Shown here: in pieces, positions 24,593-39,644 of the stretch
Layout: every line of letters begins with the position of its first letter
Numbering within the stretch: position 1 is the first letter of the stretch
Source: Rubrivirga sp. SAORIC476
Lineage (GTDB): Bacteria; Bacteroidota; Rhodothermia; Rhodothermales; Rubricoccaceae
Assembly: GCF_002283555.1 (NCBI RefSeq)
Contig: NZ_MVOI01000002.1
Span: 310,001-374,000 of the forward strand
Direction: 5' to 3'
Length of the DNA: 64,000 nt
Program-made: the position numbers and the translations under genes
Notes under the pieces: model-generated
Told to the model about the DNA's origin: nothing
The model's database searches: none
What the model saw: the letters and a program-made list of their open reading frames with translations, nothing else

Positions 24593-25467
24593 TGCGCCTC
24601 CTCCTCCTCGTCCTCGTGCTGGCCGCGCCGGTCGCCGCTCAGCACGCGCATCACGCGCACGCCGCGGCGACGCTCGACTCCGTGCAAGTCGCCTTCCTGG
24701 CTGACGCGACGCACGCCCTCGCCGCCTTCGCCGACCCCGCCGACGCGCTGGCGGCAGGCTTCCGCCCGCTCGGCCCCGACATGCCGCACATGGGCCAGCA
24801 CTGGGTCCACCCCGGCCGGGCCGTCGGGCGCGCGTTCGACGCCGCCGAGCCGTCGATGCTGACCTACCTGCCGGTGGACGGTCGGCAGGTTCTCACCGGT
24901 GCCGCCTGGACGATCCCGATCCGAGCGGGCGAGGCGCCCCCGGACTTTCCGTGGCCGGGCGCGTGGCACGCCCACGCCGGGAGGCTAATGGATGAGGCGT
25001 TCGGACTCGTCCCCCACGGCGTCCGCGAGGCCGACCGGCCCCGGCTGGCGATGCTGCACGCGTGGACGGGCATCGAGAACCCGGACGGCGTGTTCACGGC
25101 CGACAACTGGGCGCTCCCCTTCGCCCGCGCGGGCGTGCCGGTCCCCCACCACGTGACGCCCGAAGCGGGCCGGGCCGTGGCGCTGGCGGCGGGCTACCTG
25201 CCCTTCTACCGCGAGGCCGTCGTCCGCGCTGCCGCGCCGCCACCCGATGTTCTCGCGCGAATCGAGGCTGCATTCGCCCATCGCGCGGCGTCTGTCCGCG
25301 CCCTGATCGCGGCCGAGCGCGTGCCCGACGTGGAGGCGCTCGCCGCCGAGTGGGCCCGCCTCGGCGCCGAGGTGGAGGCCGTCGCGCCGGACGCGTGGCC
25401 GCGGCTGGCGGGGCTGTTCGGCGCGCAGGGCCACACCGGGACGCACGCGATCGCGGAGGGCGACTGA
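24589..25467 (+). CDS. His-rich exported protein, unknown (third gene of a coupled trio)
   Basis: A 292-residue periplasmic or secreted protein: MMRLLLLVLVLAAPVAAQ signal, then HAHHAHAA at the mature N-terminus. His-containing motifs PDMPHMGQHWVHPG (near 65-75) and AWHAHAGRLMDE (near 125) could form a metal site; metal binding is inference. MLHAWTGIENPDGVFTADNW follows, then a helical C-terminal half. No named family recognised. ATGA overlap with the preceding lipoprotein gene suggests that it works with those two envelope lipoproteins, possibly in metal handling at the cell surface. Confidence 0.72.
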   Translation: MMRLLLLVLVLAAPVAAQHAHHAHAAATLDSVQVAFLADATHALAAFADPADALAAGFRPLGPDMPHMGQHWVHPGRAVGRAFDAAEPSMLTYLPVDGRQVLTGAAWTIPIRAGEAPPDFPWPGAWHAHAGRLMDEAFGLVPHGVREADRPRLAMLHAWTGIENPDGVFTADNWALPFARAGVPVPHHVTPEAGRAVALAAGYLPFYREAVVRAAAPPPDVLARIEAAFAHRAASVRALIAAERVPDVEALAAEWARLGAEVEAVAPDAWPRLAGLFGAQGHTGTHAIAEGD

Positions 25468-25854
25468 GGGCCGACGTACCTGCCGTCGTGGTCCCGACAC
25501 CGGAACCATCGCCTGCAAATGCGGGCGTTCGACGCGTGGCGCTCCGGCGGGAAGCACCCCACTCGGCGGCGGCGCCACGTGCGGCCAGATGCTCGGCCGA
25601 GCGAGTGTGCTGAGGCGCAGCACGGCAAGCGACTCGGCGTCCTATCCATGATGCTCCTCTTCGAGATATAGGATGAAACCTAGACCAGGGCGCTGACGCG
25701 CGCCAGGGCACGTCGGCGCGGCACACGAACGGCGCCCTGTTCCATCACCGCCGCGACCTGATCGACCCGACGGGCCTCCTCCACGGGCGCCGCTGCCCTC
25801 CTGACTCCGAGCGAGGCCCGAAGGCTAGTTTGCCTCCCCCTCTTCCCCTGGCCC
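25468..25854. other. 387-base intergenic region
   Basis: No convincing gene on either strand. It holds an 8-bp imperfect hairpin (CGCCTGCA 25510-25517 with TGCGGGCG 25520-25527), which may end the preceding operon. TCCTAT (25640-25645) is mirrored by ATAGGA (25668-25673) in the most AT-rich stretch here. TAGTTTGC (25826-25833) lies just before the next gene. The rest is featureless GC-rich sequence. Confidence 0.5.
25826..25833 (+). promoter_or_regulatory. -7-like box TAGTTTGC
   Basis: A member of the recurrent set, 21 bases before the ATG at 25855. Confidence 0.4.
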
Positions 25855-26484
25855 ATGGGACTCTTCTCGTCCGACCCCGCGACCCACTTCCCCCTCGTCA
25901 CCGGCCGCACGCTCGACGGCGACGATGTCCGCTTCCCGCAGGACCTGCCCGCCGACGCGACGCTGCTGATCGTCTACTTCCAGGACGACCTCGACCCGTT
26001 GGCCGACCAGTGGGCCCGCCTCGGCGAACGCATGGCCGAGCCCCTGGACGGTCGCCTGGCGGTCGTCGAGACGCCCGTCGTGGGACGCACGTTCAAGCTG
26101 CTCGGCGACCTCGGCACGATGGGCATCCGCGGCCAGGTGGACGACGAGGCGGAGCACGCGCGCACGGTTCCGCTCTACGTCGACACGAAGGTCTTCCGCA
26201 AGACGCTCTCGATCAAGACCGGCGACGTGTACGCGTTTCTCCTCGCCCGCGACGGCCGGATCGCGTGGCGCGGCGAGGGCGCCATCGACATGGACGAGAT
26301 CCACGACCTGGAGGCCGCCGTCGCCGACGTGCTCGCAGCCCCGATCCCAGCGCCCACCGACCACCCGGACCTCGACGCCGAGGCGGACGACGCAGAGCCG
26401 GAGGCCGATGCACCGAAGACGGAGGGCGAGGCTCCGGAGGTCGACTCGTCCGGGACGGACGGCGAGGACCCGAGCGCCCCTTGA
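25855..26484 (+). CDS. ATP10/redoxin-like protein without cysteines, acidic tail
   Basis: A 209-residue soluble protein without a signal peptide. The first 160 residues follow a thioredoxin-like layout: TLLIVYFQDDLDPLADQWARLGERM for the strand-helix of the redox site, RTVPLYVDTKVFRKTLSIKTGDVYAFLLARDGRIAWRGEGAID for the second half. The last block resembles the C-terminal motif of ATP10-type proteins. There is no cysteine at the place of the redox-active pair, nor anywhere else, so any role is not thiol chemistry. From about 165 to the end the chain is mostly Asp, Glu, Pro and Ala, probably disordered. Family assignment is tentative. Confidence 0.6.
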   Translation: MGLFSSDPATHFPLVTGRTLDGDDVRFPQDLPADATLLIVYFQDDLDPLADQWARLGERMAEPLDGRLAVVETPVVGRTFKLLGDLGTMGIRGQVDDEAEHARTVPLYVDTKVFRKTLSIKTGDVYAFLLARDGRIAWRGEGAIDMDEIHDLEAAVADVLAAPIPAPTDHPDLDAEADDAEPEADAPKTEGEAPEVDSSGTDGEDPSAP

Positions 26485-26502
26485 TGTCTGGCGGCGGGCG
26501 CC

Positions 26503-27972
26503 TCAGTACGCCCCCGACCCCTTCATCACCACGCGGACGGTCCGCACCAGGATGACGGCGTCCAGCCACGGCGACCAGTTGCGGACGTAGTACGGGTCCC
26601 AGCGCTCCATTCCGAGGTTGCCCGCGTCGCTCCGCCCGGAGACCTGCCACAGCCCCGTGATGCCGGGGCGGACGCGCTCCCGCAGTGCGCGGACGCGCTC
26701 GCTCAGTTCCTCGTAGTGGTACGCCGGGAGCGGCCGCGGACCGACGAGGCTCATGTCGCCCATGAGGACGTTCCAGAGCTGAGGCAGTTCGTCGAGGCTC
26801 GTCCGGCGGAGGAGGCGGCCGGGGGCGGTGATGCGCGGGTCGCGCTCCAGCTTGAAGTGCTCCTCCCACTCGGCCTTGAGGGCGGGGTCGGCGGCGAGGG
26901 CAGCCTGGAGCACGCCCTCGGCGTCGGGCACCATCGTGCGGAGCTTCCAGGCGGGGAAGGTCTCGCCGTCCTCCCCGATGCGCTCCTGCGCGTAGAACGG
27001 ATTGGCGCGGTCGGACGCCCAGACCCAGAGCGCGAGCAGGCCCACGAGCGGCATCCAGAGCGGCGCCAGCCCGACGACCACGGCGAGGTCGGCGGCCCGC
27101 TTCATGAACCGTGGCGCGCGGCGCGTCAGCGTCGACTTGAGCTCCAGGCCGAGGACGCCCGCGATGTCACGCGGCGTGACCCACAGGCTCGGCGCCTCGA
27201 ACAGGTTGGGGATGATGACGACCGTCTGGTAGCACGACAGCGGCCCTTCGAGGAGCGCGATCTGGTGGTCCGGGTGGTCGTCGGGCAGGGCCAGGAAGGC
27301 GACGGCCGCCTCGGGTGCCACGCGCGACGAGTCGCCGACGACCGGGATGGTGTCGAGGTACTCGCCCCACATCGCCTCGTCGTCGCTGAAGACGGCGACC
27401 GGCGTGTAGCCGATGCCCCGCTCCTCCTGTAGTTGGCGGACGATCCGCGCGCCCGCCGGGCCCGCTCCGTACACGACGGCCGGGACGCCCCACTGGTCGC
27501 TCTTCACGAGCATGCTCTTGATGCTCCACCGGGCCATCGGCACGAACGCGAGCGATAGGATGCCCGCAGCACCCAGCGCGAGGCGGCTCGCCGTCGGGCC
27601 GACGCCTGAGTCGGTCGCCAGCCAGAGGCCGACCACGGTGACCGCGAACACGCCCGCGAGCACCCACACGACGCGCCGAAGCTCCTCGACCGCCCCGAGC
27701 CCCCAGCCGGGCAGCAGCCCTGCCATCGCGGAGACGGCCAGATACAGCGGCACCACCGCCCACCCGTACCCGACCTCCGACCCGAACTCGCCGACCACCA
27801 GTTGCCGCACGAACCCGGCGATCAGCAGCGCGACGGCCAGCGCGAGCGCCTCGCCATAGGCCACCGTGAGTCCGTTGATGACGCGGCGACGGGTGTGGTC
27901 TCCGGTGTAGGCACGGGCCAGCTCACGGTACCGCGAGAACGGACGGTCGGGCGTGTGGAGAACGGTTTCCAT
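26503..27972 (-). CDS. wbaP: Undecaprenyl-phosphate sugar phosphotransferase, WbaP-like
   Basis: An inner-membrane enzyme that transfers a sugar-1-phosphate to undecaprenyl phosphate and starts a repeat unit of surface polysaccharide. The 489-residue protein has four to five N-terminal membrane segments (to about 150), a nucleotide-binding CoA-like domain (VYGAGPAGARIVRQLQEE, near 170), then a reentrant helix around 310-330. The catalytic PglC-like core follows, with KLRTMVPDAE, RITAPGRLLRRTSLDELPQLWNVLMGDMSLVGPRP and GITGLWQVSGRS. ATG 27972 (METVLHTP) was chosen; an ATG at 28011 is possible. It is the last gene of the polysaccharide operon. The sugar specificity (Gal or Glc) is not certain. 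Confidence 0.9.
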   Translation of the reverse strand: METVLHTPDRPFSRYRELARAYTGDHTRRRVINGLTVAYGEALALAVALLIAGFVRQLVVGEFGSEVGYGWAVVPLYLAVSAMAGLLPGWGLGAVEELRRVVWVLAGVFAVTVVGLWLATDSGVGPTASRLALGAAGILSLAFVPMARWSIKSMLVKSDQWGVPAVVYGAGPAGARIVRQLQEERGIGYTPVAVFSDDEAMWGEYLDTIPVVGDSSRVAPEAAVAFLALPDDHPDHQIALLEGPLSCYQTVVIIPNLFEAPSLWVTPRDIAGVLGLELKSTLTRRAPRFMKRAADLAVVVGLAPLWMPLVGLLALWVWASDRANPFYAQERIGEDGETFPAWKLRTMVPDAEGVLQAALAADPALKAEWEEHFKLERDPRITAPGRLLRRTSLDELPQLWNVLMGDMSLVGPRPLPAYHYEELSERVRALRERVRPGITGLWQVSGRSDAGNLGMERWDPYYVRNWSPWLDAVILVRTVRVVMKGSGAY

Positions 27973-28079
27973 GGTCAGACGCGAGGGGGTGCGAGCCCCT
28001 TCCGCAACCATCGGGCCACGCCTCGACCAGACGCATTTACCACGGGCTCAGCAGATCGAAACGTCACCGCCTGCCCAGC

Positions 28080-29945
28080 TTAACGGGGCCACCAGGGCGC
28101 TGCGGGGGCTCCGGACCAGTCCCCTCGCGCACGCACCCGAGCGAGATCGGCCCCCACCTGAGCGGAAGGAATCACTCGCGTGCCGGGCGCCCCGGCATCG
28201 ACCGGGTCGACGGGGCCTGCGGGGACGCGGTCGCCCGGGTTCACGAGCCGCGCCGTCCGGTCGCCGCCGACGAGGCGCTGCCACATGGCGAGGTCGTCGC
28301 TTCGGAAGTCGGCCTCCAGGTCGGGGACGGGCGCCAGGTAGAAGGTCGACTGGTAGAGGTCGCGGCCGCGGCGGCCGTAGGCGTTGCCCGCGAACCGCGT
28401 CGTGCGGACGTGCGCGGGGCTCGTCCCGGCGATTGACATCTCGCGCGCCTCATGCTCTCCGGTCACGTTCCCCGCGATCCAGTTGTTGGCCACCACGTTG
28501 GCACCGTCGGGCGCGCGACGGTCGGGGTCGAGGCGAAGCCAGACGCCACTGCCCTCGTTCGCCTCGACGGTGTTGTGGACGTAGGCGTTGCGGCTCGCCG
28601 CCTGCGAGAGAATGCCCGTCCCGGTCCAGCGCAGCCAGCGCGTCGCGGCGGCGACGTTGTGCTGAACGAGCGTCTCGGTCGTGTTCAGTTCGAGCATGAT
28701 GCCCGCGCTCGCGTTGCCCACCAGCAAGCACCCCTCGATGGTGTTGCGGTGATTGCCGCCGTCGAGCCAGATGCCGGGGCCACCGTTGTGGGCCGCGTAG
28801 TGGCGGCGGATGACCGAGTCGGTGGTGCCCACCCACTTCCCTCCTCCCGCCTCCCAGTAGGGATCGTGCCCCTTCCAGTTGTTCCCGACCGCGGCGTTGT
28901 CCTCGAACAGGCAGCCCTGGCAGCCGCCGCCCCAGCCCATCTGGCCGTTCAGGTCGGCGCGCGTCTGCCGGAAGGTGTGGCCCCGCCCCGACGCGTCGAT
29001 GCCCAGCCCGTTCGTCCACTCCACGCGGACGTCTTCGACCAGCCCGCCCTCGCGTCCGGCGCACACGGCCCCTTCCTGGGCGCGGTTCGTCGCGTACCGG
29101 AACGTCAGGCCGACGACCCGGAACCAGCCGGGCGTGGACGGATCGCCGCACTCGGCGTAGGGGTCGCTGCCGACGGGGGAGAACAGCACACGCCGCATGC
29201 CCACCTCCACGCCGCCACCGAGGCCGGGGGCCTGGTCGTCGCGAAAGCGGGCCACGAGGGCGGTCGGCTGGGCGTCCGGGCCCTCGCGCCAGAACCGCCC
29301 TGGCGCGAGGTCGGCGCGCTGGCCGACGGGCCGCAGCACGCGCCCTGCGGCGACGACCTGCTCGAGGCGGAAGGTCGGGTCGTCGGAGTAGGTGAGCATC
29401 TGCCCGCCCGTCCAGGGCCGCCGCCACGCGCCGTCGCGCTGGCGCTCCCAGCCGCCGTCGGCCGGGTCCGCACCGGTGATGACGACCGTGTCGCCGGGAT
29501 AGGCGGCGAACGTGACGCGCGCGTCGGGGCCGGTCCCCCCAGACGCAGGGCGAACCGACTCCCGATAGACGCCCGCGCGGATCAGCACGGCGTCGCCGGG
29601 CCGGAGAGCGCCTGCACGAGCTGCGCGGGAGATCGTCCGCCAGGGCCGTTCGGCCGTGCCGGGGTTGCGGTCACTCGCCGAGGGGTCGGCACCCGCCACG
29701 ACGTAGGTAGATCTTCCTGGGGCCGCGAAGGCCGCCAGCGGATCGGAGCAGTCGGCGTCCGATCCGCACACGTCGCTCGGCTCCAGGTCGTCCCAGGCCG
29801 CCTCGGTGAGCGGACGGGGGGGATCGTCGTGGCAACCGGAGAGCGCGAGCGTCAGCCAGGAGGCGACGAGCACGAGGCCGGAGGCCGCGAGGGCCATCCA
29901 GGACGCCGTGAGGGCCGCCGAGGCGCCGGGGTCGGCGGGCGTCAC
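28080..29945 (-). CDS. Right-handed parallel beta-helix lipoprotein (DUF1565/PbH1 repeats)
   Basis: A 621-residue exported protein. The segment ALAASGLVLVASWLTLALSGC is a signal with a lipobox Cys. Next come DVCGSDADC and the DUF1565-like opening NPGTAERPWRTISRAARAGALRPGDAVLIRAGVYRE. Beta-helix rungs fill the middle (GLGIDASGRGHTFRQTRADLNG, NHRNTIEGCLLVGNASAGIMLELNTTETLVQHN, RNAYVHNTVEANEGSGVWL). Such folds belong to polysaccharide lyases, epimerases and adhesins, so it may trim or bind the polymer made here. GTG 29945 overlaps the deacetylase stop (GTGA); an alternative ATG, 29897, starts at MALAASG and gives a more typical signal peptide. Confidence 0.8.
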   Translation of the reverse strand: MTPADPGASAALTASWMALAASGLVLVASWLTLALSGCHDDPPRPLTEAAWDDLEPSDVCGSDADCSDPLAAFAAPGRSTYVVAGADPSASDRNPGTAERPWRTISRAARAGALRPGDAVLIRAGVYRESVRPASGGTGPDARVTFAAYPGDTVVITGADPADGGWERQRDGAWRRPWTGGQMLTYSDDPTFRLEQVVAAGRVLRPVGQRADLAPGRFWREGPDAQPTALVARFRDDQAPGLGGGVEVGMRRVLFSPVGSDPYAECGDPSTPGWFRVVGLTFRYATNRAQEGAVCAGREGGLVEDVRVEWTNGLGIDASGRGHTFRQTRADLNGQMGWGGGCQGCLFEDNAAVGNNWKGHDPYWEAGGGKWVGTTDSVIRRHYAAHNGGPGIWLDGGNHRNTIEGCLLVGNASAGIMLELNTTETLVQHNVAAATRWLRWTGTGILSQAASRNAYVHNTVEANEGSGVWLRLDPDRRAPDGANVVANNWIAGNVTGEHEAREMSIAGTSPAHVRTTRFAGNAYGRRGRDLYQSTFYLAPVPDLEADFRSDDLAMWQRLVGGDRTARLVNPGDRVPAGPVDPVDAGAPGTRVIPSAQVGADLARVRARGDWSGAPAAPWWPR

Positions 29946-30589
29946 CAGACCAGCTTGGTGCAGTGGAACGCCTCGGCGTAGCGCGCCCCGGCCTCGACGC
30001 CGCGAAGGCGCGCGAGGCCACGGAACGTCTCGGCGTCGTACCAGCCCTTCGTGGCCTGGCTGGGGAAGTGGGCGTCGAGGATCGCCAGCTTGTGGTCCAG
30101 CACGGCCGCGTCGAGGCGGACGTAGGCGTTGGGCCGGTCGAGGTCGCCGTCCCACTTCGGGATCTCGTACGCCGCGATCGCCGCGCCACGGAACGTCTGC
30201 CACGCGAGGTCCGCGATCACCCGGTGGTCCTGGTGGGCGTCGTCGCGGCGGTGCGTCAGCACGAGGTGGGGGCGGACGGATTCGAGCGTCTCCCGCGCAA
30301 AGGCCTTGATGTCGCTCGCCTCGAACGGGAAGAAGCCGTCGCGGTGCGACAGCAGGTGGACGTCGGCGCGAGCGGCGTCGGCCAGCAACGCGTCCGCGGC
30401 GGCGCGGGCCTCGGCGGCGCGGTCGGCCGAGCCGGAGAAGACGACGTGGGTGACCTCGGTGCGCGGCCGCTCAGCGAGCAGGCGCAGCAGCGTCCCTCCG
30501 GCCCCGATCTCGATGTCGTCGGCGTGGGCGCCGAGGCAGACCACGCGCAGCGGCTCGGCACGCCCGAGGGCAGGGTCGAGAGCGAACAC
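29942..30589 (-). CDS. PIG-L/LmbE family N-deacetylase
   Basis: A 215-residue zinc-dependent deacetylase, probably acting on an N-acetylated (amino)sugar or its nucleotide. The metal-binding motif is H22-A-D24-D25 in GAHADDIEIGAGGTL, and the third ligand lies in HRRDDAHQDHR. The ending KGWYDAETFRGLARLRGVEAGARYAEAFHC matches PIG-L proteins of O-antigen loci. No ATG exists. GTG 30589 shares a base with the stop of the nucleotidyltransferase gene (TAGTG), indicating termination-reinitiation. Its place between sugar activation and the initiating transferase argues for deacetylation of a surface-glycan precursor. Confidence 0.88.
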   Translation of the reverse strand: MFALDPALGRAEPLRVVCLGAHADDIEIGAGGTLLRLLAERPRTEVTHVVFSGSADRAAEARAAADALLADAARADVHLLSHRDGFFPFEASDIKAFARETLESVRPHLVLTHRRDDAHQDHRVIADLAWQTFRGAAIAAYEIPKWDGDLDRPNAYVRLDAAVLDHKLAILDAHFPSQATKGWYDAETFRGLARLRGVEAGARYAEAFHCTKLVW

Positions 30590-31458
30590 TACACCTTCCG
30601 GAGCACGGGCCGCTGGTCGGCGCCATCGCCGAGGACGGGCGGCGCCGAGGACGCGCCCGGCGCCACGCCGTCGCCCATGGCCCGGTGGGCGCCCCAGACC
30701 TCCCAGGGCGCGTGGCCCTCGTTGTAGATGTCCTCCAGCATGGTCTTCTCCTTGAACGTGTCCATGCACGCCCAGAAGCCGCCGTAGTCGTACGACCCGA
30801 GCTGGCCGACGGCCGCCATGCGGTGCGAGGGCGGCCCCAGGATGTCCTCGCCGGGCTCGATGTAGTCGAAGAAGCGCTGGTTCATCACGAAAAAGCCCCC
30901 GTTGATGCGGAGGCCCACCTCGGTCACGTGGCGGACCATCGTGACGGCGCCCGAGTCGTTTGTCTCGATGACGTGGCTCGTGTAGTTCGGCTGGACGCCG
31001 AGGAATGTCGCCGCCCGGTCGCTCTGCTGCGCGAACTGGATCATGTCGTCCAGGGGCGCATCGGTCACGCCGTCGGCGTAGTTGGCCAGGAACCACTCGT
31101 CGTCGCCGAGGAACTCGCGGACGGCCAGCAGTCGCTCCCCCACGCAGGCCTTCAGGCCGGTGTCGACGAACGTGATCCGCCAGTCGTGGATGTCGCTCTT
31201 GAGCAACTCCACCGACGTCCCGCCTGTGAGGACGAAGTCGTTGGAGACGGTCTCGTCGTAGTCGACGAAGTAGCGCTTGATGTGATCGGCGCCGTGGCCG
31301 AGGCAGAGGATGAAGTCCTTGTGGCCGTAGTGGGCGTAGTACTTCATCAGGTGCCAGAGGATCGGCCGGTAGCCGACGCACACCATGGGCTTCGGGACCG
31401 GGCCCGAGTGCTCCTTGATGCGCATGCCTTCTCCTCCACAGAACAGGACGACTTTCAT
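30589..31458 (-). CDS. Sugar-1-phosphate nucleotidyltransferase (glucose-1-phosphate cytidylyltransferase-like)
   Basis: A cytoplasmic enzyme of 289 residues that joins a sugar-1-phosphate to an NTP. The nucleotide loop is VLFCGGEGMRIKEHSGPVPKPMV, with Met in place of the usual Thr in G-x-G-T-R. ILWHLMKYYAHYGHKDFILCLG and IKRYFVDY match the RfbF cytidylyltransferase group, as do NYADGVTD (metal Asp) and FFVMNQRFFDYI. About 30 residues after AHRAMGDG form a C-terminal extension. The base used, C or another, is not proven. It is ATGA-coupled to the aminotransferase upstream. Confidence 0.85.
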   Translation of the reverse strand: MKVVLFCGGEGMRIKEHSGPVPKPMVCVGYRPILWHLMKYYAHYGHKDFILCLGHGADHIKRYFVDYDETVSNDFVLTGGTSVELLKSDIHDWRITFVDTGLKACVGERLLAVREFLGDDEWFLANYADGVTDAPLDDMIQFAQQSDRAATFLGVQPNYTSHVIETNDSGAVTMVRHVTEVGLRINGGFFVMNQRFFDYIEPGEDILGPPSHRMAAVGQLGSYDYGGFWACMDTFKEKTMLEDIYNEGHAPWEVWGAHRAMGDGVAPGASSAPPVLGDGADQRPVLRKV

Positions 31459-32867
31459 GAGTCTTGGGGGGTCGCGCGGATGCGCGGATGTGCAGAAACG
31501 GCGCCGTCGCCGCCGGATCGCGATACAGAGGTCCAAACCGTCCCGGCTTTCTTCCGGAACACAGGCTGAACCGGTCGGCCGAGCAGGAAGCCGTCCGTGG
31601 TGCCCGCGTCGAGGGCGCGGACGTAGACCGCCAGCGCGCCCGCGACCGCCTCGACGGTCTCGTCGATCACCGGGTCCGTGTGGGCCGTCGTGATCACGAA
31701 CGACGGCGCGAGGACGCCACGGCGCGTCAGCTCTTGGAGGAAGAGGGTCCGGTAGGGCTGGGACGCCGCGCCATCGGGGTCTCGGGTATAGAACACGAGG
31801 TTGCAGTCCCGGCCGGCCGTTCCCACGAAGCCCTCCGCGCCCGACTGGCGGACGACCTCGGCGACGCCCTCTCGCAGTCGCGCGCCCTGGCGCATGAGCT
31901 GGCCCTCGACGTCTTCGGCGCGAGCGATCCGCATCGTCTCGACTGCCGCGGCCAGTCCGTGCGTCTCGGCGCCGTGCGTACTGGAGAGCAGGAAGACGCG
32001 GTCGGCGTCCGTGTCGAGCCCGCCCGCCGCCATCAGGTCCCGGCGCCCGGCGAGGGCGCTGACCGAGTGGCCGTTGGCGAGCGCCTTGCCGAACGTCGAC
32101 AGGTCGGGGTCGAGGCCGAACAGGCCCTGGGCGCCGCGGGCCGACCACCGGAAGCCGGTGATCATCTCGTCCAGCACGAACACCACGCCCCGCTCGCGGC
32201 ACGCGGCGATGCAGGCGCGGAGGTAGTCCGTCGGGTCGCTCTCGTCGCGGACCGCCTCCATGATGACGCACGCGGGCCGGTGCGCGTCGAGCACGTCCAC
32301 CAGCGCACCGAGGTCGCCGTACGGGAACGCCACCGTCAGGTCCTTGACGGCCTGCGGGATGCCCGCGTCCATCGGCGTCGTGCCGATGAACCAGTCGTCC
32401 TGGGACAGGAACGGGTGGTCGCCGCACATCGCGACGGTATCGCGGCCGGTCGCGGCGCGGGCCACCTTGACGGCCGCCGTCGTCGCCGACGAGCCGTCCT
32501 TGCAGAACTTGACGCACTCGGCGCCGACGAGGTCGAGGAACGCCTCGGCAGCCTCCAGCTCCACGCGTGCCGGACGGGAGAAGTTGGTGCCTCGCTCCAT
32601 CTGCCGGACCGCCGCCGCGACGACGCGCGGCTCGGCGTGGCCCAGCGTGACCGCCCGCAGCCCCTGGCCGTACTCGATGAATCGGTTGCCGTCGAGGTCC
32701 CAGACATGCGCCCCCTCGCCGCGGTCGACCACGACAGGCATCCACTCGGGCATCTGGTCGTCGCCCTTGGCATACGTGTGCGCGCCGCCCGGAATCAGTC
32801 GATGCGCGCGGGCCTGGTGGGCGCGGCTGGTGGCGAAGCGGTCGAAGTAGGGGTCGAGAGGCGACAT
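31455..32867 (-). CDS. Class III PLP aminotransferase, glutamate-1-semialdehyde-aminomutase-like, in a glycan locus
   Basis: A 470-residue fold-type I PLP enzyme. IPGGAHTYAKG and DLDGNRFIEYGQGLRAVTLGH open the fold. Phosphate and ring contacts are in KFCKDGSSATTAAVKVAR and VLDEMITGFRWS, and the Schiff-base lysine is Lys261 in LSTFGKALANG. HemL is around 430 residues and serves tetrapyrrole synthesis; this one sits among glycan genes and has a 25-residue C-terminal tail, so a sugar or side-chain amination/mutase role is more likely (inference). ATGA overlap with the nucleotidyltransferase; four bases from the preceding gene. Confidence 0.85.
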   Translation of the reverse strand: MSPLDPYFDRFATSRAHQARAHRLIPGGAHTYAKGDDQMPEWMPVVVDRGEGAHVWDLDGNRFIEYGQGLRAVTLGHAEPRVVAAAVRQMERGTNFSRPARVELEAAEAFLDLVGAECVKFCKDGSSATTAAVKVARAATGRDTVAMCGDHPFLSQDDWFIGTTPMDAGIPQAVKDLTVAFPYGDLGALVDVLDAHRPACVIMEAVRDESDPTDYLRACIAACRERGVVFVLDEMITGFRWSARGAQGLFGLDPDLSTFGKALANGHSVSALAGRRDLMAAGGLDTDADRVFLLSSTHGAETHGLAAAVETMRIARAEDVEGQLMRQGARLREGVAEVVRQSGAEGFVGTAGRDCNLVFYTRDPDGAASQPYRTLFLQELTRRGVLAPSFVITTAHTDPVIDETVEAVAGALAVYVRALDAGTTDGFLLGRPVQPVFRKKAGTVWTSVSRSGGDGAVSAHPRIRATPQDS

Positions 32868-32871
32868 GGGC

Positions 32872-34239
32872 TCAGGCGGCGACGAGCAGGCCCGCCTCGG
32901 CCAGACGGTCGGCGGCGGCGCGGACGGTGGAAAACGGCAGGGCGCTCCGCTCGGCCACATCCAGGAGCGAGCGCGTGCCGTCGGACAGGTTGAGGACCCA
33001 GAGCGCGGCCTGCTGGGCGGCAGGGCCCTCGGGGAGACCGCCGAGGCTGGCGTAGAGGCCACGTCGGCCCAGTTGCGGCTCGCCGTAGGGCTGCGTGTTG
33101 CGGTAACGGCGGTCGCCGTCGAGCACGTCGACGACGGCTTCGAGGGCAGACAGCGAGGCCGCGAGCGCCTCGGGGCGGACGAGGCCGAGGTCGTCGCCGG
33201 AGGTGTGGTACTCGGGGTACTCGCCGTGCGGCGTCCGCGTCAAGCGGCCGACGGGGAGGTCGAAGCCGGGACTCCCGAACTGGCGCTCGTCGTAGCCGGT
33301 CGGCTCGAACGGCCGCACGTCCACGTCGCGGCCGAGATCGCGCATCGCGACGGCCACGGCGCGGTCGACGGCCAGCGGAGCGCCGAGCGTCCCGGCGCGC
33401 GTCTGCTTGTACGTGAAACCACCCGCGTCGCCCAGGTTGGCGAGCACCAAGCCGTGGCGGATCCGCCCGAGGTCGGCGTGGTGGCGGTCGAGCCACGTGA
33501 TGGCGCCCAGCGTGCCGGGCGCGAACAGGAACCGGATCGTGTGGCGCCGCTTCGGGCCGTTCAGCAGGCGGCGGGCGAGCATCGTGGCGACGGCCAGCGA
33601 GGCCGTGTTGTCGTTGGCGAGCGCCGGGTGGCAGGCGTGGGCCGAAAACAGGATCTCGTCGCTCGTCTCGCCCTCGATCACCACCTCCCCCATCGTCAGG
33701 CTCCCGTCCACATGCTCGGCGTCGATCACGACCCGGACCTCGCCCCCCTCTCCGATCTCGGCCGCCAGCGCGTCGAGCGCGTCGTGCGTCAGGCAGAAGC
33801 CCCACGTCGGCGCGTAGTAAGACGTGCGGTACGGGACGAGCGAGGGCTGCTCGGGCAGCGTGTGGAGGTGCGCCCGGAGCGCCCAGAGCGGCATCGTGTC
33901 GCGCACGGCGACGCTGTACTGGACGAGGTGGAGCGGGCTGTCCGCCCAGTCCACGATCCGCGTCCCGTCCTCGCGGGCCAGGTATGCCTCGCGGACGCGC
34001 CACTCCTTGGGGACCGTCCAGTCGAGCACCTTCGTGCCACTGGGGACCTCCGAGATCCGCATCGGCACCCGCTCGCTGATGGCGAGGAGTTGTTCGCGGA
34101 GCCCGGCGCCCGTTAGCCCGCGCCGGAACGGCAGCCACTCCGCGACCAGCTTGTGGAGCGCGGCGCCCACGTCAGGGACGTCCGCCTCGGCAGACTCACC
34201 GAGGCGGGCAGGGGCAGGCGGCGGGGCAGCGACGGGCAC
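32872..34239 (-). CDS. DUF4910 aminopeptidase-like protein of glycan loci
   Basis: A 455-residue soluble protein. It has the family order: LPFRRGLTGAGLREQLLAI, GTKVLDWTVPKEW (DUF2172-like insert), LFSAHACHPALANDNTASLAVATMLARRLL (M28-like zinc-peptidase fold), EYHTSGDDLGLV, and a winged-helix C-terminus (SLLDVAERSALPFSTVRAAADRLAEAGLL). Relatives occur in O-antigen and capsule clusters; activity is unproven. It heads the six-gene operon. ATG 34239 is used, but the first 23 codons cover a dispersed hairpin (34182-34207), and GTG 34170 would match the usual family N-terminus better. Confidence 0.82.
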   Translation of the reverse strand: MPVAAPPPAPARLGESAEADVPDVGAALHKLVAEWLPFRRGLTGAGLREQLLAISERVPMRISEVPSGTKVLDWTVPKEWRVREAYLAREDGTRIVDWADSPLHLVQYSVAVRDTMPLWALRAHLHTLPEQPSLVPYRTSYYAPTWGFCLTHDALDALAAEIGEGGEVRVVIDAEHVDGSLTMGEVVIEGETSDEILFSAHACHPALANDNTASLAVATMLARRLLNGPKRRHTIRFLFAPGTLGAITWLDRHHADLGRIRHGLVLANLGDAGGFTYKQTRAGTLGAPLAVDRAVAVAMRDLGRDVDVRPFEPTGYDERQFGSPGFDLPVGRLTRTPHGEYPEYHTSGDDLGLVRPEALAASLSALEAVVDVLDGDRRYRNTQPYGEPQLGRRGLYASLGGLPEGPAAQQAALWVLNLSDGTRSLLDVAERSALPFSTVRAAADRLAEAGLLVAA

Positions 34240-34447
34240 GGGTCAGGCGACGGTTCCCCCCCGGTATCGGCGACCTCGCGCCCCTACTCAACCCATGCCG
34301 GCCTTCTCCGGACCCGCGCGCGGCCTTTGCCGAGCCCGTGCAGAGCCTTTGCCGGGCCTCCCTCAACCCACCGTCACCCACGGCCGATTGATCCGTTCCT
34401 TGCTGGCCATCCACAACGAACCGCCGGTCCTGTCCGGCGAGCCTCTT

Positions 34448-34654
34448 ATGACCAAGGGTACGATCACCCACTTCGACCCGCGCCGCGGCACGGGCTTCGT
34501 CCGCCATCACCACGCCGAATCGGGCATCCCGTTCTCGGTGCGCCACGCCCAGGACCGCCAGTTCGCCCACGGCGACGCGGTCGAGTTCACCGTCCGCGGT
34601 GGCATGGCGGGTGTGGCTGCGCACGGCGTCCGCCGCGTCCGCGCCACGACCTAG
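34448..34654 (+). CDS. Divergent cold-shock-domain (CspA-like) nucleic-acid-binding protein
   Basis: A 68-residue single-domain protein. MTKGTITHFDPRRGTGFVRHH corresponds to beta1-beta2 of the cold-shock fold with RNP1 K/R-G-x-G-F. IPFSVRHA replaces the usual VFVHFS RNP2, and AHGDAVEFTVRGGMAGVAAHGVRRV ends the barrel. The His cluster HHHAE and the loss of the RNP2 phenylalanines are unusual, so RNA binding may be altered. It is followed by two hairpins, the second a strong intrinsic terminator. It is transcribed alone, divergent from the glycan operon; the 208-base leader region could hold a long 5' UTR. Confidence 0.8.
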   Translation: MTKGTITHFDPRRGTGFVRHHHAESGIPFSVRHAQDRQFAHGDAVEFTVRGGMAGVAAHGVRRVRATT

Positions 34655-34661
34655 TCCGAGA

Positions 34662-34683
34662 CGGCCGTCCCGTAAGACGGCCG
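34662..34683. terminator. Hairpin after the cold-shock gene
   Basis: CGGCCGTC (34662-34669) pairs with GACGGCCG (34676-34683), 6-base loop, starting seven bases past the stop codon. No T-run follows. Confidence 0.5.
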
Positions 34684-34693
34684 CCTCCTTTCG

Positions 34694-34732
34694 CGAGCGC
34701 CCAATGGGAAACCGTCGGGCGCTCGTTTTTTT
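34694..34732 (+). terminator. Strong rho-independent terminator of the cold-shock gene
   Basis: CGAGCGCCC (34694-34702) pairs perfectly with GGGCGCTCG (34717-34725), followed immediately by seven T (34726-34732). It is the only textbook intrinsic terminator with a long T-run that I see in the window. Confidence 0.9.
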
Positions 34733-34757
34733 GCGTCACCTCGCAGCGCCCCCTCCG

Positions 34758-35174
34758 CTACCTAGCCGCGGCGCTGGCGACGACCCACACCGTGACCACG
34801 GCCGACACGCCGAACCCGACGACCAGCGTGCTCAGGTTGAGCCAGAAGAGCGTGGGGGCCTCGGCGTATCGGACCGTCCGCCACCCGCGGCCGAAAAAGA
34901 ACGGCGGGACCGCCCCCGACCTCCACACGAACACCGTCGCGACGCCGAGGCCCAGGCTGAGCAGCAGACACATCGCGAGGAGGTGGATGCCCGCCCCGAC
35001 GTACAGGAGGCCCCCGAGCCCCACGACGTAGGCCAGGTTCAGCATGCCCGCGTTGGCGTACTCGGGATTGGGCTTCCCGTCCTTCAGAACGCCCTGCTCC
35101 TCCAGCCGCTCCACGTTCCTCTCTGCGAGGCGCAACCAGGCGTGCCGGAGACGTGAGAAGGGAGTGCGTGACAT
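34758..35174 (-). CDS. Small integral membrane protein, unknown
   Basis: A 138-residue protein with a basic, helical N-terminus (MSRTPFSRLRHAWLRLAERNVERLEEQGVLKDG), then three to four membrane segments: GMLNLAYVVGLGGLLYVGAGIHLLAMCLLLSLGLGVATVFVW (two helices) and LFWLNLSTLVVGFGVSAVVTVWVV. No catalytic motif and no family recognised. ATG 35174 gives the intact basic N-terminus; the open frame continues far upstream, antisense to the oxidoreductase gene, and is not coding. It converges on the cold-shock gene across its terminator. Confidence 0.7.
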   Translation of the reverse strand: MSRTPFSRLRHAWLRLAERNVERLEEQGVLKDGKPNPEYANAGMLNLAYVVGLGGLLYVGAGIHLLAMCLLLSLGLGVATVFVWRSGAVPPFFFGRGWRTVRYAEAPTLFWLNLSTLVVGFGVSAVVTVWVVASAAAR

Positions 35175-35384
35175 GAGACGGAGACTCCGCCGCCTGGAGT
35201 AGGCGACTCGGTGCGGGGATACCCGAGGATACCGCGATCGCACCCGGAGCCCAGAAGACGACCGCTGAGAGACGGCCCGGCGAAGGTGCGACTCAGGCTT
35301 CGGGAAGAGGCCGCGTGTCGCCGCTCCGGTTGGAACGCCCCACGGCACCCGACCGTCCGCGCGCGCACCCACACCGATCCCACC

Positions 35385-36428
35385 ATGCCCCAGACTCCAG
35401 ACACGAACCGACGCGTCGTCCTCGCCGCGCGCCCCGAGGGAGCCCCCACCCCGGACACCTTCCGCCTCGAACACGACCCGGTGCCGGAGCCCGCCGAGGG
35501 CCAGCTTCTGCTGCGCACCGTTTACCTGTCGCTCGACCCGTACATGCGCGGCCGCATCAGCGACGCACCGTCGTACGCCGCGCCCGTCGCGGTCGGCGGC
35601 CTGATGGTCGGCGGCACGGTCTGCCGCGTGGAGATCTCCCGTCACCCGGACTACGCCGCCGGGGACTGGGTCCTCGGCTACACCGGCTGGCAGGACTATG
35701 CGCTCTCCGACGGCCAGGGCCTCACGGCGCTCGACCCGACCCGCATGCAGCCCTCCTGGGCGCTCGGCATCCTCGGCATGCCCGGCTTCACCGCCTACAT
35801 GGGCCTGACCGACATCGGCCAGCCCAAGGCCGGCGAGACCGTGGTCGTCGCCGCGGCCTCCGGCGCGGTCGGCTCCGTCGTCGGCCAGGTCGCCAAGCTG
35901 CTGGGCTGTCGCGTGGTCGGCATCGCGGGCGGCACGGAGAAGTGTGACTACGTCGTGGACACGCTGGGCTTCGACGCCTGCATCGACCACCGCCAGGACG
36001 ACCTCCCCGGACGCCTCGCGGATGCCTGCCCGGATGGGATCGACGTGTACTTCGAGAACGTCGGCGGTAAGGTCTTCGACGCCGTCCTCCCTCTCCTGAA
36101 CACCCGGGCGCGCATCCCGCTCTGCGGCCTGATCGCCACGTACAACGCCACCGAACTCCCTCCCGGCCCAGACCGCATGTCGGTCCTGACGGGCACGCTG
36201 CTCAAGAAGAGCATCCGCATGCAGGGCTTCATCGTCTTCGACGACTATGGCGACCGGTACGGCGAGTTCCTGAAGACGGTCGGCCCCTGGGTCGCCGACG
36301 GCAAGCTGCACTACCGCGAAGACGTGGTCGACGGCCTGGAGCACGCGGCCGAGGGCCTGATCGGCATGCTGGAGGGCCAGAACTTCGGCAAGCTGGTCGT
36401 GCGCGTTGGCCCCGACGACCTCGCGTGA
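35385..36428 (+). CDS. MDR-superfamily NADP-dependent oxidoreductase (CurA/YncB, LTB4-dehydrogenase-like)
   Basis: A 347-residue cytoplasmic zinc-free medium-chain reductase that likely reduces alkenal or enone double bonds with NADPH. SLDPYMRGRIS and WQDYALSDG belong to the N-terminal GroES-like domain. The Rossmann fold has ETVVVAAASGAVGSVVGQVAKLLGC with the A-A-x-G-x-V-G pattern. DVYFENVGGKVFDAVLPLL and GFIVFDDY are diagnostic of the LTB4DH/YncB branch. No zinc ligands are present, as expected. It is monocistronic; physiological substrate unknown, probably detoxification of reactive carbonyls. Confidence 0.92.
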   Translation: MPQTPDTNRRVVLAARPEGAPTPDTFRLEHDPVPEPAEGQLLLRTVYLSLDPYMRGRISDAPSYAAPVAVGGLMVGGTVCRVEISRHPDYAAGDWVLGYTGWQDYALSDGQGLTALDPTRMQPSWALGILGMPGFTAYMGLTDIGQPKAGETVVVAAASGAVGSVVGQVAKLLGCRVVGIAGGTEKCDYVVDTLGFDACIDHRQDDLPGRLADACPDGIDVYFENVGGKVFDAVLPLLNTRARIPLCGLIATYNATELPPGPDRMSVLTGTLLKKSIRMQGFIVFDDYGDRYGEFLKTVGPWVADGKLHYREDVVDGLEHAAEGLIGMLEGQNFGKLVVRVGPDDLA

Positions 36429-36540
36429 GCGGAGCGCCGGGGGACCATGCCGTCGGCCCGTTTCATCCCCCCATGTGGCGCCCGTCCTGCCCCCCACGTG
36501 AGGCCCACATTGGGGGCCAGGCGCTCCGATCGGCCCCTCG

Positions 36541-37116
36541 TCACGGCTTCTCTTCTCGGCTCAACCTGTCGAGGAACGTCTCGAACCGCCGTCGCCGGGT
36601 TTCGGGCTTCTTCGCCGTCATCAACCCGGATGCGATGACGTACCGGCTCGACTTGTTCAGGGTCTGGAAGAACCGCTTCGCAACTGGCCGACTCTCCAGC
36701 GCAGCCACGAAGTCTGCCGGGACCTCCATCTCACTCGGCGGGGGGTACGCGTTCTCCCATCGGCCGTCCGCCTTCGCCGCACGCACCTGCGCGAGGCCCG
36801 GCTCCTCCATGCGGCCCTCGCGGATCAGGCGCGCCACGTGCTCGGTGTTGCGCTTCGACCAGATGCTCCGCGCCGTCCTGGGCGTGATCCGCTGGAGGTA
36901 GGCCTGGTCGTCGAGCGACTTCTTGATGCCGTCGATCCAGCCCCAGCACAGCGTCTCGGCCACGATGTCGTCCCAGCCGACGCTCGGGAGTCCCGACTTC
37001 TTTTTGAACACCTTCACCCAGAGCTCGGATTCCGTCGCGTGGTTCGCCGTCAGCCACTCGCGGAGGGCTTCGGGTGAGGCAAAGGATCTCGTCGTTTCTG
37101 GATTGACGTCGGGCAT
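36541..37116 (-). CDS. YdeI/OmpD-associated family protein
   Basis: A cytoplasmic protein of 191 residues. It shows the family blocks SFASPEALREWLTANHATESELWVKVFKKKSG, VGWDDIVAETLCWGWIDGIKK (Cys-Trp-Gly-Trp), RITPRTARSIWSKRNTEHVARLIREGRM and the C-terminal FQTLNKSSRYVIASGLMTAKKPETRRRR. Proteins of this family are widespread; some are tied to resistance to cationic peptides or phages, but the biochemical role is unsettled. ATG 37116 starts MPDVNPETTRSF; ATG 37134 adds six residues. A -7-like box, TAGCTTCG, lies about 60 bases upstream. Confidence 0.85.
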   Translation of the reverse strand: MPDVNPETTRSFASPEALREWLTANHATESELWVKVFKKKSGLPSVGWDDIVAETLCWGWIDGIKKSLDDQAYLQRITPRTARSIWSKRNTEHVARLIREGRMEEPGLAQVRAAKADGRWENAYPPPSEMEVPADFVAALESRPVAKRFFQTLNKSSRYVIASGLMTAKKPETRRRRFETFLDRLSREEKP

Positions 37117-37176
37117 GGCGTAGTCCAGAGGCATCTGTCGGACGTTCGGCCGCGACAGGCAGAGGAAGGGGTGCCG

Positions 37177-37184
37177 CGAAGCTA
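37177..37184 (-). promoter_or_regulatory. -7-like box TAGCTTCG before the YdeI-like gene
   Basis: Identical to the box before asnS. It lies 43-61 bases upstream of the two possible ATGs. Confidence 0.35.
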
Positions 37185-37317
37185 TGGACGCCGCCGGAGA
37201 CTGCGGCGCCCGAGGATGCAGGAGCCCATCGTCGGCATGGGGTGGCGAGGTCTTCACCCCGGCCGGCGCCCTCCAGAACCGAGTCTGCGCGCTCGACGCG
37301 AGCGGCCCCCTCGCGCC

Positions 37318-37986
37318 TCAGCGCCAGATCACCACCTCCGAGAGCGGCTTCCGCTGGAGGTCCGGCACCCTCGCCCCCTCCGCCGGGTAGCCCACCGGGA
37401 AGAGGATGAACGGCGCCTCGTTCGCCGGGCGTTCCAGCACCTCCGAGAGAAACCGCATCGGCGACGGCGTGTGCGTCAGCGTCGCCAGCCCAGCCCGGTG
37501 GAGCGATGCGATGAACAGCCCCGCCGCGATGCCGCAGCTCTCCTGCACGTAGTAGTGCTTCCGCTTCGTGCCGTCTGCCGTCACGCCGGTCCGCTGCGCG
37601 AACAGCACCACGAGCCACGGCGCCGTCTCCAGGAACGGCTTCTGCCAGTCGGTGCCGAGCGGCGCGAGCGCCTCCAGCCACTCGTCCGACATCCGCCCGC
37701 CGTAGCTGGCCCGCTCCTCTGCCTCCGCCGCCTCCCGGATGCGGCGCTTCAGGTCCGGGTCCGAGACGGCCACGAACGTCCACGGCTGCATGTGGGCCCC
37801 GCTGGGCGCCGTGCCCGCCGTCGCGATGGCGTGCTCGATCAGCGCCCGCGGCACCGGCCGGTCCGAGAACTCGCGCACCGAGCGCCGCGCGTCCATCACG
37901 TCGAAGAACGCCTCCGCCCGCTCCAGCGACTCCGCCTCGGTCAGCGGGTCGACGGTGTACGGGATCGTCGGGAGCGGCCCTGCCAC
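37318..37986 (-). CDS. Nitroreductase-family FMN oxidoreductase
   Basis: A 222-residue flavoprotein. The FMN-binding opening RRSVREFSDRPVPRALIEHAIATAGTAPSGAHMQPW is typical, followed by WLVVLFAQRTG and KHYYVQESCGIAAGLFIASLHRAGLATLTHTP, the dimer and cofactor part. It resembles the enzymes related to iodotyrosine deiodinase more than oxygen-insensitive NfsB types, because of the TAPSGAHMQPW-TFVAV block; substrate unknown. There is no ATG. GTG 37986 shares a base with the asnS stop (TAGTG), so it is translated by reinitiation after asnS, an unexpected pairing of a tRNA synthetase with a redox enzyme. Confidence 0.88.
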   Translation of the reverse strand: MAGPLPTIPYTVDPLTEAESLERAEAFFDVMDARRSVREFSDRPVPRALIEHAIATAGTAPSGAHMQPWTFVAVSDPDLKRRIREAAEAEERASYGGRMSDEWLEALAPLGTDWQKPFLETAPWLVVLFAQRTGVTADGTKRKHYYVQESCGIAAGLFIASLHRAGLATLTHTPSPMRFLSEVLERPANEAPFILFPVGYPAEGARVPDLQRKPLSEVVIWR

Positions 37987-39494
37987 TACGGGTGGAGGCG
38001 TCCGAGGAGCCGCGGGAAAGGCCCGGTCTCGCGAACGTGCGACAGGCCGCAGACCCACGCCACGGTTCGCTCCAGGCCCAGCCCGAAGCCCGCGTGCGGC
38101 ACGCTGCCGTACTTGCGCAGGTCGAAGTACCAGTCGAAGGCGCTCTCCGGCAGTCCGTGCGCCTCCACCTGATCCCTCAGGAACTGGAGGTCGGTCGCGC
38201 GTTCTCCCCCGCCGATGATCTCGCCGTAGCCCTCCGGCGCGAGCACGTCCATGCCCAGCGCCAGCCGGTCGTCCTCGGGGTCGCGCTTCATGTAGAACGC
38301 CTTCACTGCCGCCGGGTAGCGGTGCACGATGACCGGCGTCGGGAAGTGCTTCGTCAGGATCGTCTCGTCGGACGCCCCGAAGTCGGCGCCCCACTCGAAG
38401 CCCGCCGCGCTGGCCTTCCAAGTCGGGATGTTGCGCAGCCCCTCCGCGATCTCGTCGAGACGGACGTTGATCTCGATCTCGCGGGCGTCGATGCGCCGCT
38501 TCTCGCCCTTCTTGGCCTGTCCGTAGGCTCCGCGGTTGCGGTCGCGCTCGTCTTCCAGGGCCTTCTGCTCGTCCTCCAGCCCTTCCTGCTCGGCGTCGAG
38601 CATCAGCTGGGTCTGGTCGCTCGTCAGCAGTTCCACCGCCTCCGAGTAGCTGAGGCGCGGGAACGGAGCCCCCGCCGCTGCCTCCAGCGCGCCCGTGTCG
38701 CGCTCCAGGACCGCCAGTTCGTCGCGGCAGTCGGCCAGGACCGCCGTCAGGATCGCCACCAGCAGTTCCTCCGCCACCTCCATGTTCATGGACAGGTCGT
38801 AGAACGCCATCTCCGGCTCGATCATCCAGAACTCCGTCAGGTGCCGCCGGGTGCGCGACTTCTCCGCCCGGAAGGTCGGGCCGAAGGTGTAGATCTTGCC
38901 GTGCGCCATCGCCATCGCCTCCCCGTGGAGCTGGCCGCTCTGGGTCAGGTAGGCGGGCTCGTCGAAGTAGTCCAGCTCGAACAGCGTCGAGGTGCCCTCG
39001 ACCGCGTTGCCGGTCAGGATCGGGGCGTCCATCTGGATGAAGTCCTCGCCCTGGAAGTAGGCGTGGATGGCCATGATGATGCGGTTGCGGATCCGCATGG
39101 CCGCCCACTGGCGCTGGCTCCGCAGCCACAGGTGACGGCGGTCCATGAGGAACTCGACGCCGTGCTCCTTGGGCGTGATCGGGTAAGGCTCGGCCAGCGC
39201 GATGACCTCCAGGGAGGTCGCCTGCACCTCCACCCCACCCCGCTGCCGGTCGTCCGCCCGGACGGTGCCGACGACGCGGAACGCGCTCTCCTGCGTCAGC
39301 GACGCCGCGGCCTCCCACGACGCAGCGTCCACCTGCTCCTCGTTCACCACCACCTGCACGATGCCGGAGCCGTCGCGCAGTTCGAGGAACATCAGTCCCT
39401 TCGAGCCGCGGGCGTTGTACAGCCACCCGTTCACGGTGACGGTCTCACCGGTGGACTCGGGCAGGGCGTGGACGCGGACGAACGGCTCGGTCAT
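37986..39494 (-). CDS. asnS: Asparaginyl-tRNA synthetase with an internal coiled-coil insertion
   Basis: Class IIb synthetase charging tRNA-Asn, cytoplasmic, 502 residues. OB-fold anticodon domain at 1-100 ([24 protein letters not shown]); motif 2 region [25 protein letters not shown]; motif 3 in the final [18 protein letters not shown]. Between about 295 and 366 a charged, Lys/Glu/Arg-rich helical stretch ([20 protein letters not shown] and on) interrupts the catalytic domain and probably forms a coiled-coil arm. ATG 39494 follows the -7-like box TAGCTTCG by 22 bases. It is co-translated with a nitroreductase. Confidence 0.94.
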
Positions 39495-39515
39495 GACGGG
39501 GCGCAGGGGGAAGCC

Positions 39516-39523
39516 CGAAGCTA
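39516..39523 (-). promoter_or_regulatory. -7-like box TAGCTTCG before asnS
   Basis: A member of the recurrent set, 22 bases before the asnS ATG and just downstream of the hairpins that would end the preceding GWxTD transcript. Confidence 0.45.
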
Positions 39524-39584
39524 CCGTCGCCGCGGGGGCCGCCGCGCGTAGAGCGTGGGAGAAGAGGGCCGCGACGCCGCGCGA

Positions 39585-39630
39585 CCGCCTCGGCGCCGTC
39601 ACCGAGGCGGGGCGCCCGACGGGGGGCGCC
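39585..39630. terminator. Double hairpin ending the GWxTD gene
   Basis: CCGCCTCGG (39585-39593) pairs with CCGAGGCGG (39602-39610) around 8 bases, and GGCGCCC (39611-39617) with GGGCGCC (39624-39630). They lie between the GWxTD stop and the asnS promoter. The first stem belongs to the dispersed CCTCGG family. Confidence 0.6.
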
Positions 39631-39644
39631 CGCGCACGCGCCGC

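Follow-up and report, generated by a model that had tools for sequence, protein, structure and literature searches.

What is made by an operon in which a protein of the DUF4910 family is followed by an aminotransferase, a nucleotidyltransferase (NTase) and a PIG-L family de-N-acetylase? The question is raised by a locus on contig C2 of the 4.48 Mb genome of Rubrivirga sp. SAORIC476, which we analysed within a window of 64,000 nucleotides. A reading made from the sequence only had proposed a surface-glycan locus that makes an activated sugar, deacetylates or aminates it and then starts a lipid-linked polymer. Our comparison across genomes suggests that this view is sound as far as it goes, but that the operon probably encodes only half of a pathway.

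Layout of the operon

Six genes lie on the minus strand and run in one direction from 34239 to 26503, in the order DUF4910 protein, aminotransferase, NTase, PIG-L, beta-helix protein and WbaP-like transferase; the operon and its family assignments are as the sequence-only reading had described them. The DUF4910 and aminotransferase genes are separated by a 4-base gap, and the three joins reported earlier were all recovered: ATGA between aminotransferase and NTase (4-base overlap), TAGTG between NTase and PIG-L (1-base overlap) and GTGA between PIG-L and the beta-helix gene (4-base overlap). The WbaP-like gene is the most loosely attached of the six, spaced 68 bases from the beta-helix gene, or 107 if it starts at the ATG at 27972 instead of at 28011, both starts being possible. 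A scan of 26300-28200 revealed no terminator-like or promoter site, and Rfam gave no match over 25400-37500.

Upstream of the operon, genes for a nitroreductase-family protein, a class II (D/K/N) tRNA synthetase and a GWxTD-domain protein occupy 37318-41048 (minus strand). Their homologues hold the same position in several relatives, so that the location of the operon is constant for part of the family. A short ORF divergent from the operon (34447-34654, plus strand) encodes, by its sequence, a putative cold-shock-domain protein.

The two distal genes have different distributions. The beta-helix protein (28080..29945, minus strand; PF13229, PF05048) carries a lipobox-like LALSGC near its N-terminus. 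Its homologues within the window's family are 51-71% identical, no other clear homologue was found in the module clusters, and the gene is absent from G002, a genome of the same genus. The predicted lipoprotein is, judging from these comparisons, an accessory that was added locally, within the window's family. Its match to the xylosidase 3vst covers an N-terminal stretch only and gives no enzyme class, and an AlphaFold model built from four sequences reached a mean pLDDT of 41. The WbaP-like protein (26503..28011, minus strand), a predicted polyprenyl-phosphate sugar-1-phosphate transferase, matches PF02397 (Bac_transf) with 187.6 bits and TIGR03025 with 321.9 bits (cut-off 295.55), and scores 398.9 bits against the galactose-specific WbaP model TIGR03022 (cut-off 403). 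Its gene stands beside the module in most of the Rhodothermia read. The operon contains no complete Wzx/Wzy locus, having neither flippase nor polymerase, as had been remarked; the five Polysacc_synt and four Wzy_C matches of the genome all lie elsewhere.

A recurring set of seven genes

Gene neighbourhoods were read in public genomes and in relatives of the window's organism, using DUF4910 as the anchor. This gave 90 DUF4910 loci. Relatives of the window protein are over-represented among them, some loci end at contig edges, and the linkage counts are therefore lower bounds. Six genes recur beside DUF4910: the NTase, PIG-L, the aminotransferase, a C-methyltransferase (CMeT; Methyltransf_13/14), an RmlC-type epimerase and an SDR epimerase. 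All seven occur within about 10 kb in at least 29 of the 90 loci, which belong to Rhodothermia, actinobacteria and rhizobia. According to its annotation, Sinorhizobium fredii NGR234 carries the seven genes on pNGR234b (NC_012586, near 1335990-1336754), and the independent annotation of Mesorhizobium shows most of the set. The earlier reading had treated the operon genes as belonging together, and comparison with other genomes bears this out: the four core genes (DUF4910, aminotransferase, NTase and PIG-L) remain together, unsplit, in the window's family. The grouping is not due to chance, since the order is kept in that family and the core recurs in other phyla. On a DUF4910 tree, a quick one with weak deep forks, PIG-L-linked loci were grouped, requiring 7 changes versus a mean of 29 with shuffled labels.

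A DRL_cat oxidoreductase is encoded near RmlC in seven related clusters (L211, L213, L172, L148, L073, L071 and L053). The match is to the NAD-binding part, accompanied in some clusters by an SAF domain, and some of these clusters have no C-methyltransferase; the enzyme may represent another route to a branched sugar.

The nucleotidyltransferase and PIG-L

The NTase (30589..31458, minus strand) is related to glucose-1-phosphate cytidylyltransferases, with a score of 203 bits against TIGR02623, under the cut-off of 300.25. Within the NTase superfamily, the EKP motif provides a sugar-phosphate contact. Alignment with 1tzf showed that the window enzyme keeps GGxGxR and the aspartates and that RHV stands where EKP is expected. 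Use of glucose-1-phosphate thus appears unlikely, and because the usual sugar-binding motif has been lost, the substrate may be new.

The motif was compared in 71-72 NTase sequences from DUF4910 loci. EKP was absent from every NTase of the loci containing PIG-L (47/47), and present in 24 of 25 NTases from loci without PIG-L, the exception (L050) being on a cut contig. Conversely, PIG-L and the aminotransferase were found only with an EKP-less NTase or where the stretch had no NTase, and in none of the 24 loci with an EKP NTase alone; Fisher tests gave p of about 3e-18 for PIG-L and 1e-13 for the aminotransferase, values to be taken as a guide, the rows being related. Invariant positions peculiar to the EKP-less sequences include Cys7, Glu108, Asn126 and His162. 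A reverse search of 100 genomes of the class with EKP-less NTases yielded six strong matches (343-454 bits), all six with an adjoining PIG-L gene, while weaker matches (up to 256 bits) formed a separate group. In almost every module locus, too, the PIG-L and NTase genes are neighbours. Taken together, the linkage across loci and the six strong matches indicate that the two enzymes very probably share a substrate.

PIG-L itself (29942..30589, minus strand) is a predicted zinc de-N-acetylase, with 53.9 bits against PF02585 (cut-off 28.2), a match to 6p2t, and HADD and HQDH motifs. An assignment as bacillithiol deacetylase (BshB1, TIGR04001) was rejected at 46 bits versus a cut-off of 182.5.

Other arrangements were encountered. 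One 20 kb cluster (L212, genome G388) contains both NTase types, EKP and EKP-less, and two C-methyltransferases. Seven Frankiaceae loci (L047, L058, L065, L074, L086, L090 and L100) have a canonical EKP NTase directly followed by DUF4910, no PIG-L and mostly no C-methyltransferase in reach, and represent a different cluster type.

The aminotransferase

The class III aminotransferase (31455..32867, minus strand) matches NF004856 (PRK06209) with 633.5 bits, above the cut-off of 486. Its score against the HemL model TIGR00713 is 180 bits, under the cut-off of 527.3, which is exceeded by a full-length hemL elsewhere in the genome (569.5 bits). The functional residues of glutamate-1-semialdehyde 2,1-aminomutase (GSAM) comprise the substrate-binding arginine of SPVR, a gating loop and the glutamate of SxFEA. 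In an alignment with the organism's own HemL and 42 homologues, the operon enzyme shares with HemL the class III PLP fold and the PLP lysine, but lacks all three of these determinants, and a conserved HTYA.G.DQ.P motif replaces the SPVR arginine. The enzyme is therefore not HemL, given this loss and the full hemL gene encoded elsewhere.

A PRK06209 gene scoring over the cut-off was found in 12 of the 395 Bacteroidota drawn. Besides the window, three of the five top PRK06209 loci (G410, G349 and G004) have a DUF4910 context, and other loci in Bacteroidota include ones beside CMP-sugar or NeuB-type genes. This suggests that the name attached to NF004856, glutamate-1-semialdehyde 2,1-aminomutase, is wrong for this surface-glycan-linked family.

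The DUF4910 protein

The first gene of the operon (32872..34239, minus strand; its start is at 34239 or at a later GTG, both being possible) encodes a protein of the CA_C2195/Cj1295 family with an M28-like fold. Three Pfam domains score over their curated cut-offs: DUF4910 (PF16254, 293.2 bits), DUF2172 (105.4 bits) and HTH_47 (100.1 bits), and the crystal structure of CA_C2195 (PDB 3k9t), described in PMC4000134, is matched at 1.8e-106. Residue columns of 90 homologues show that the zinc-ligand positions are kept, His204, Asp210 and His345 corresponding to His189, Asp195 and His324 of CA_C2195; in three divergent loci, Asn takes the place of the ligand Asp. Read with the available text of PMC4000134, the catalytic Asp and Glu of M28 peptidases are Ala206 and Pro241 in the window protein, which scores 20 bits against the peptidase M28 profile, under the cut-off of 21.3.

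Like CA_C2195 as presented in the part of PMC4000134 available to us, the window protein has three domains and keeps the zinc ligands. The two differ at Glu226 of CA_C2195, which is Gly242 here. In this sample, where relatives of the window protein are over-represented, 84 of the 90 homologues have Gly at the position. Glu is confined to L104, L107, L112, L119 and L178, none of which has CMeT nearby; the converse is not strict, as Frankia-type loci have Gly and mostly no CMeT in reach. The change from Glu226 to Gly had been considered as a loss-of-function mark of the genus, and this was dropped, Gly being the commonest state in the sample. The genome of L112 (G004) carries this PET-type DUF4910 gene as a second copy, about 430 kb from its module copy, and the DUF4910 protein of L212 (G388) reads PAT at the PGT site.

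The sequence-only reading had called the chemistry of this step unknown. Structural and genetic work has in fact been published, but neither the accessible text of PMC4000134 nor that of PMC3068675 gives the reaction. A link of DUF4910 to sugar clusters was already known, the same part of PMC4000134 proposing a role in modified carbohydrate synthesis for CA_C2195, whose neighbourhoods resemble the operon in containing epimerase, NTase, glycosyltransferase and methylase genes; PIG-L, the PRK06209 aminotransferase and the NTase subfamily are not named in that portion of the paper. In Campylobacter jejuni, pseudaminic acid bearing a di-O-methylglyceroyl group is made only if Cj1295 is present, and the protein was proposed to cleave an N-acyl group (Hitchen et al., PMC3068675). 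It resembles the window protein in being of DUF4910 type, in having no signal peptide and, if our working hypothesis below holds, in being needed for an N-acyl change on an activated amino sugar. Its substrate is different, pseudaminic acid with a di-O-methylglyceroyl group, whereas the operon shows no sign of nonulosonic acids.

A trio of genes on another contig

The three members of the set that are missing from the operon were found in the same genome, on contig C3 (about 401.7-404.7 kb), where SDR, CMeT and RmlC lie beside a WecG/TagA-type glycosyltransferase gene. They are 60-61%, 63-68% and 55-66% identical, respectively, to the copies in clusters of the order, and a partial match in G008 is 79% identical; the C3 genes are thus apparent orthologues of the copies found within clusters. 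In G005 and G008, which belong to the same family, CMeT and RmlC directly precede DUF4910. These two observations indicate that the operon foursome is probably half of a seven-gene pathway that has been split in the window's genus. The earlier proposal of a sugar that is activated, amino-modified and destined for a surface glycan is supported, with the correction that SDR, CMeT and RmlC must be sought on C3.

One pathway or several

We lean towards a single pathway in which the seven genes make a nucleotide-activated, C-methyl-branched amino sugar of a surface polysaccharide; its product and the order of its reactions we infer from the gene set. The NTase would activate some sugar phosphate, though not glucose-1-phosphate, and PIG-L would take the N-acetyl group off the NTase product or its precursor. 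The aminotransferase would add an amino group to a keto or aldehyde intermediate, or shift it along this intermediate. CMeT, RmlC and SDR would provide the C-methyl branch, epimerisation and reduction, as in other NDP-C-methyl-deoxysugar pathways, and DUF4910, as a working hypothesis taken from Cj1295, would alter or swap the N-acyl group. The WbaP-like transferase would then start the lipid-linked polymer, to be exported and polymerised by Wzx/Wzy proteins encoded elsewhere. More tentatively, this route to a C-methyl-branched amino sugar would be one not described before, distinguished by an NTase subfamily that acts on a sugar phosphate different from glucose-1-phosphate and works with PIG-L, and by a DUF4910 branch, reading PGT and not PET, that carries out a non-peptidase step on the sugar.

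Two observations count against a single pathway: the trio is not beside the operon, and in Nitrospira-type clusters SDR-CMeT-RmlC-DUF4910 is accompanied by a canonical NTase, PIG-L being absent. In addition, the Rhodothermia G037 and G026 hold an EKP-less NTase, PIG-L and RmlC, but the 20 kb read there contained neither DUF4910 nor CMeT nor the aminotransferase, so that the set may consist of two modules. These points, including the location of trio and foursome on different contigs, the presence of NTase-PIG-L without CMeT in G037 and G026 and the Nitrospira arrangement, would all be expected if two activated units were made for the same glycan. SDR-CMeT-RmlC would then form a C-methyl deoxysugar from an NDP-4-keto-6-deoxyhexose, NTase-PIG-L with the aminotransferase and DUF4910 would form a second, amino-bearing unit, and the genes would stay linked because a single repeat unit contains both sugars. 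We regard this as a rather unlikely but serious alternative: the affinities of the trio's SDR agree with the NTase type, the C3 enzyme sharing 49-61% identity with SDRs from the PIG-L clusters read versus 41% with a Nitrospira one, and in actinobacteria and rhizobia the gene directly upstream of the EKP-less NTase is CMeT.

Activation of a non-hexose phosphate, for example a branched polyol phosphate, leading to a CDP-alditol-like donor and a branched polyol amine, is improbable. It would fit the lack of EKP in every PIG-L-linked NTase and the DRL_cat oxidoreductase of some related clusters, which, from the family name, we take to be a DXP-reductoisomerase-like enzyme making a branched polyol phosphate. 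However, just seven of the loci read contain the DRL-like gene, several of them with a canonical NTase, no copy was identified in the window operon, and a 4-keto sugar is what RmlC and CMeT suggest. Finally, that the aminotransferase is a second HemL in a chance neighbourhood is suggested by the NF004856 name but can be dismissed as extremely improbable, in view of the hemL gene elsewhere, the missing GSAM determinants, the CMP-sugar and NeuB-type clusters among other Bacteroidota loci of PRK06209 and the recurrence of the gene set in three phyla.

Relation to known systems and significance

The single C-methyl-branched amino sugar pathway has partial counterparts in two described systems, the ddhA-ddhB-C-methyltransferase genes of Sinorhizobium meliloti (SMb21416-SMb21418, CDP-glucose/C-methyl type; PMC4053727) and the virenose model of Coxiella (PMC3539893). 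As far as the available portions of both papers describe them, they share with our set an RfbF-like NTase or a C3-methyltransferase, followed by epimerase and reductase steps. They differ in using canonical glucose-1-phosphate or other standard NTases, and PIG-L, the PRK06209 aminotransferase and DUF4910 go unmentioned in those portions. The literature searched, which covered few subscription journals, yielded no paper on the module in searches for the gene set, PRK06209 or a DRL-like branched-sugar route; neither the seven-gene set, the EKP-less PIG-L-tied NTase subfamily nor the genus-level split was found there.

DUF4910 has had a mutant phenotype since 2010 and a crystal structure since 2014. 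The conserved set now gives this family fixed partners and a divergent activating enzyme as a starting point, and Sinorhizobium fredii NGR234 offers a genetically workable host in which to find the product.
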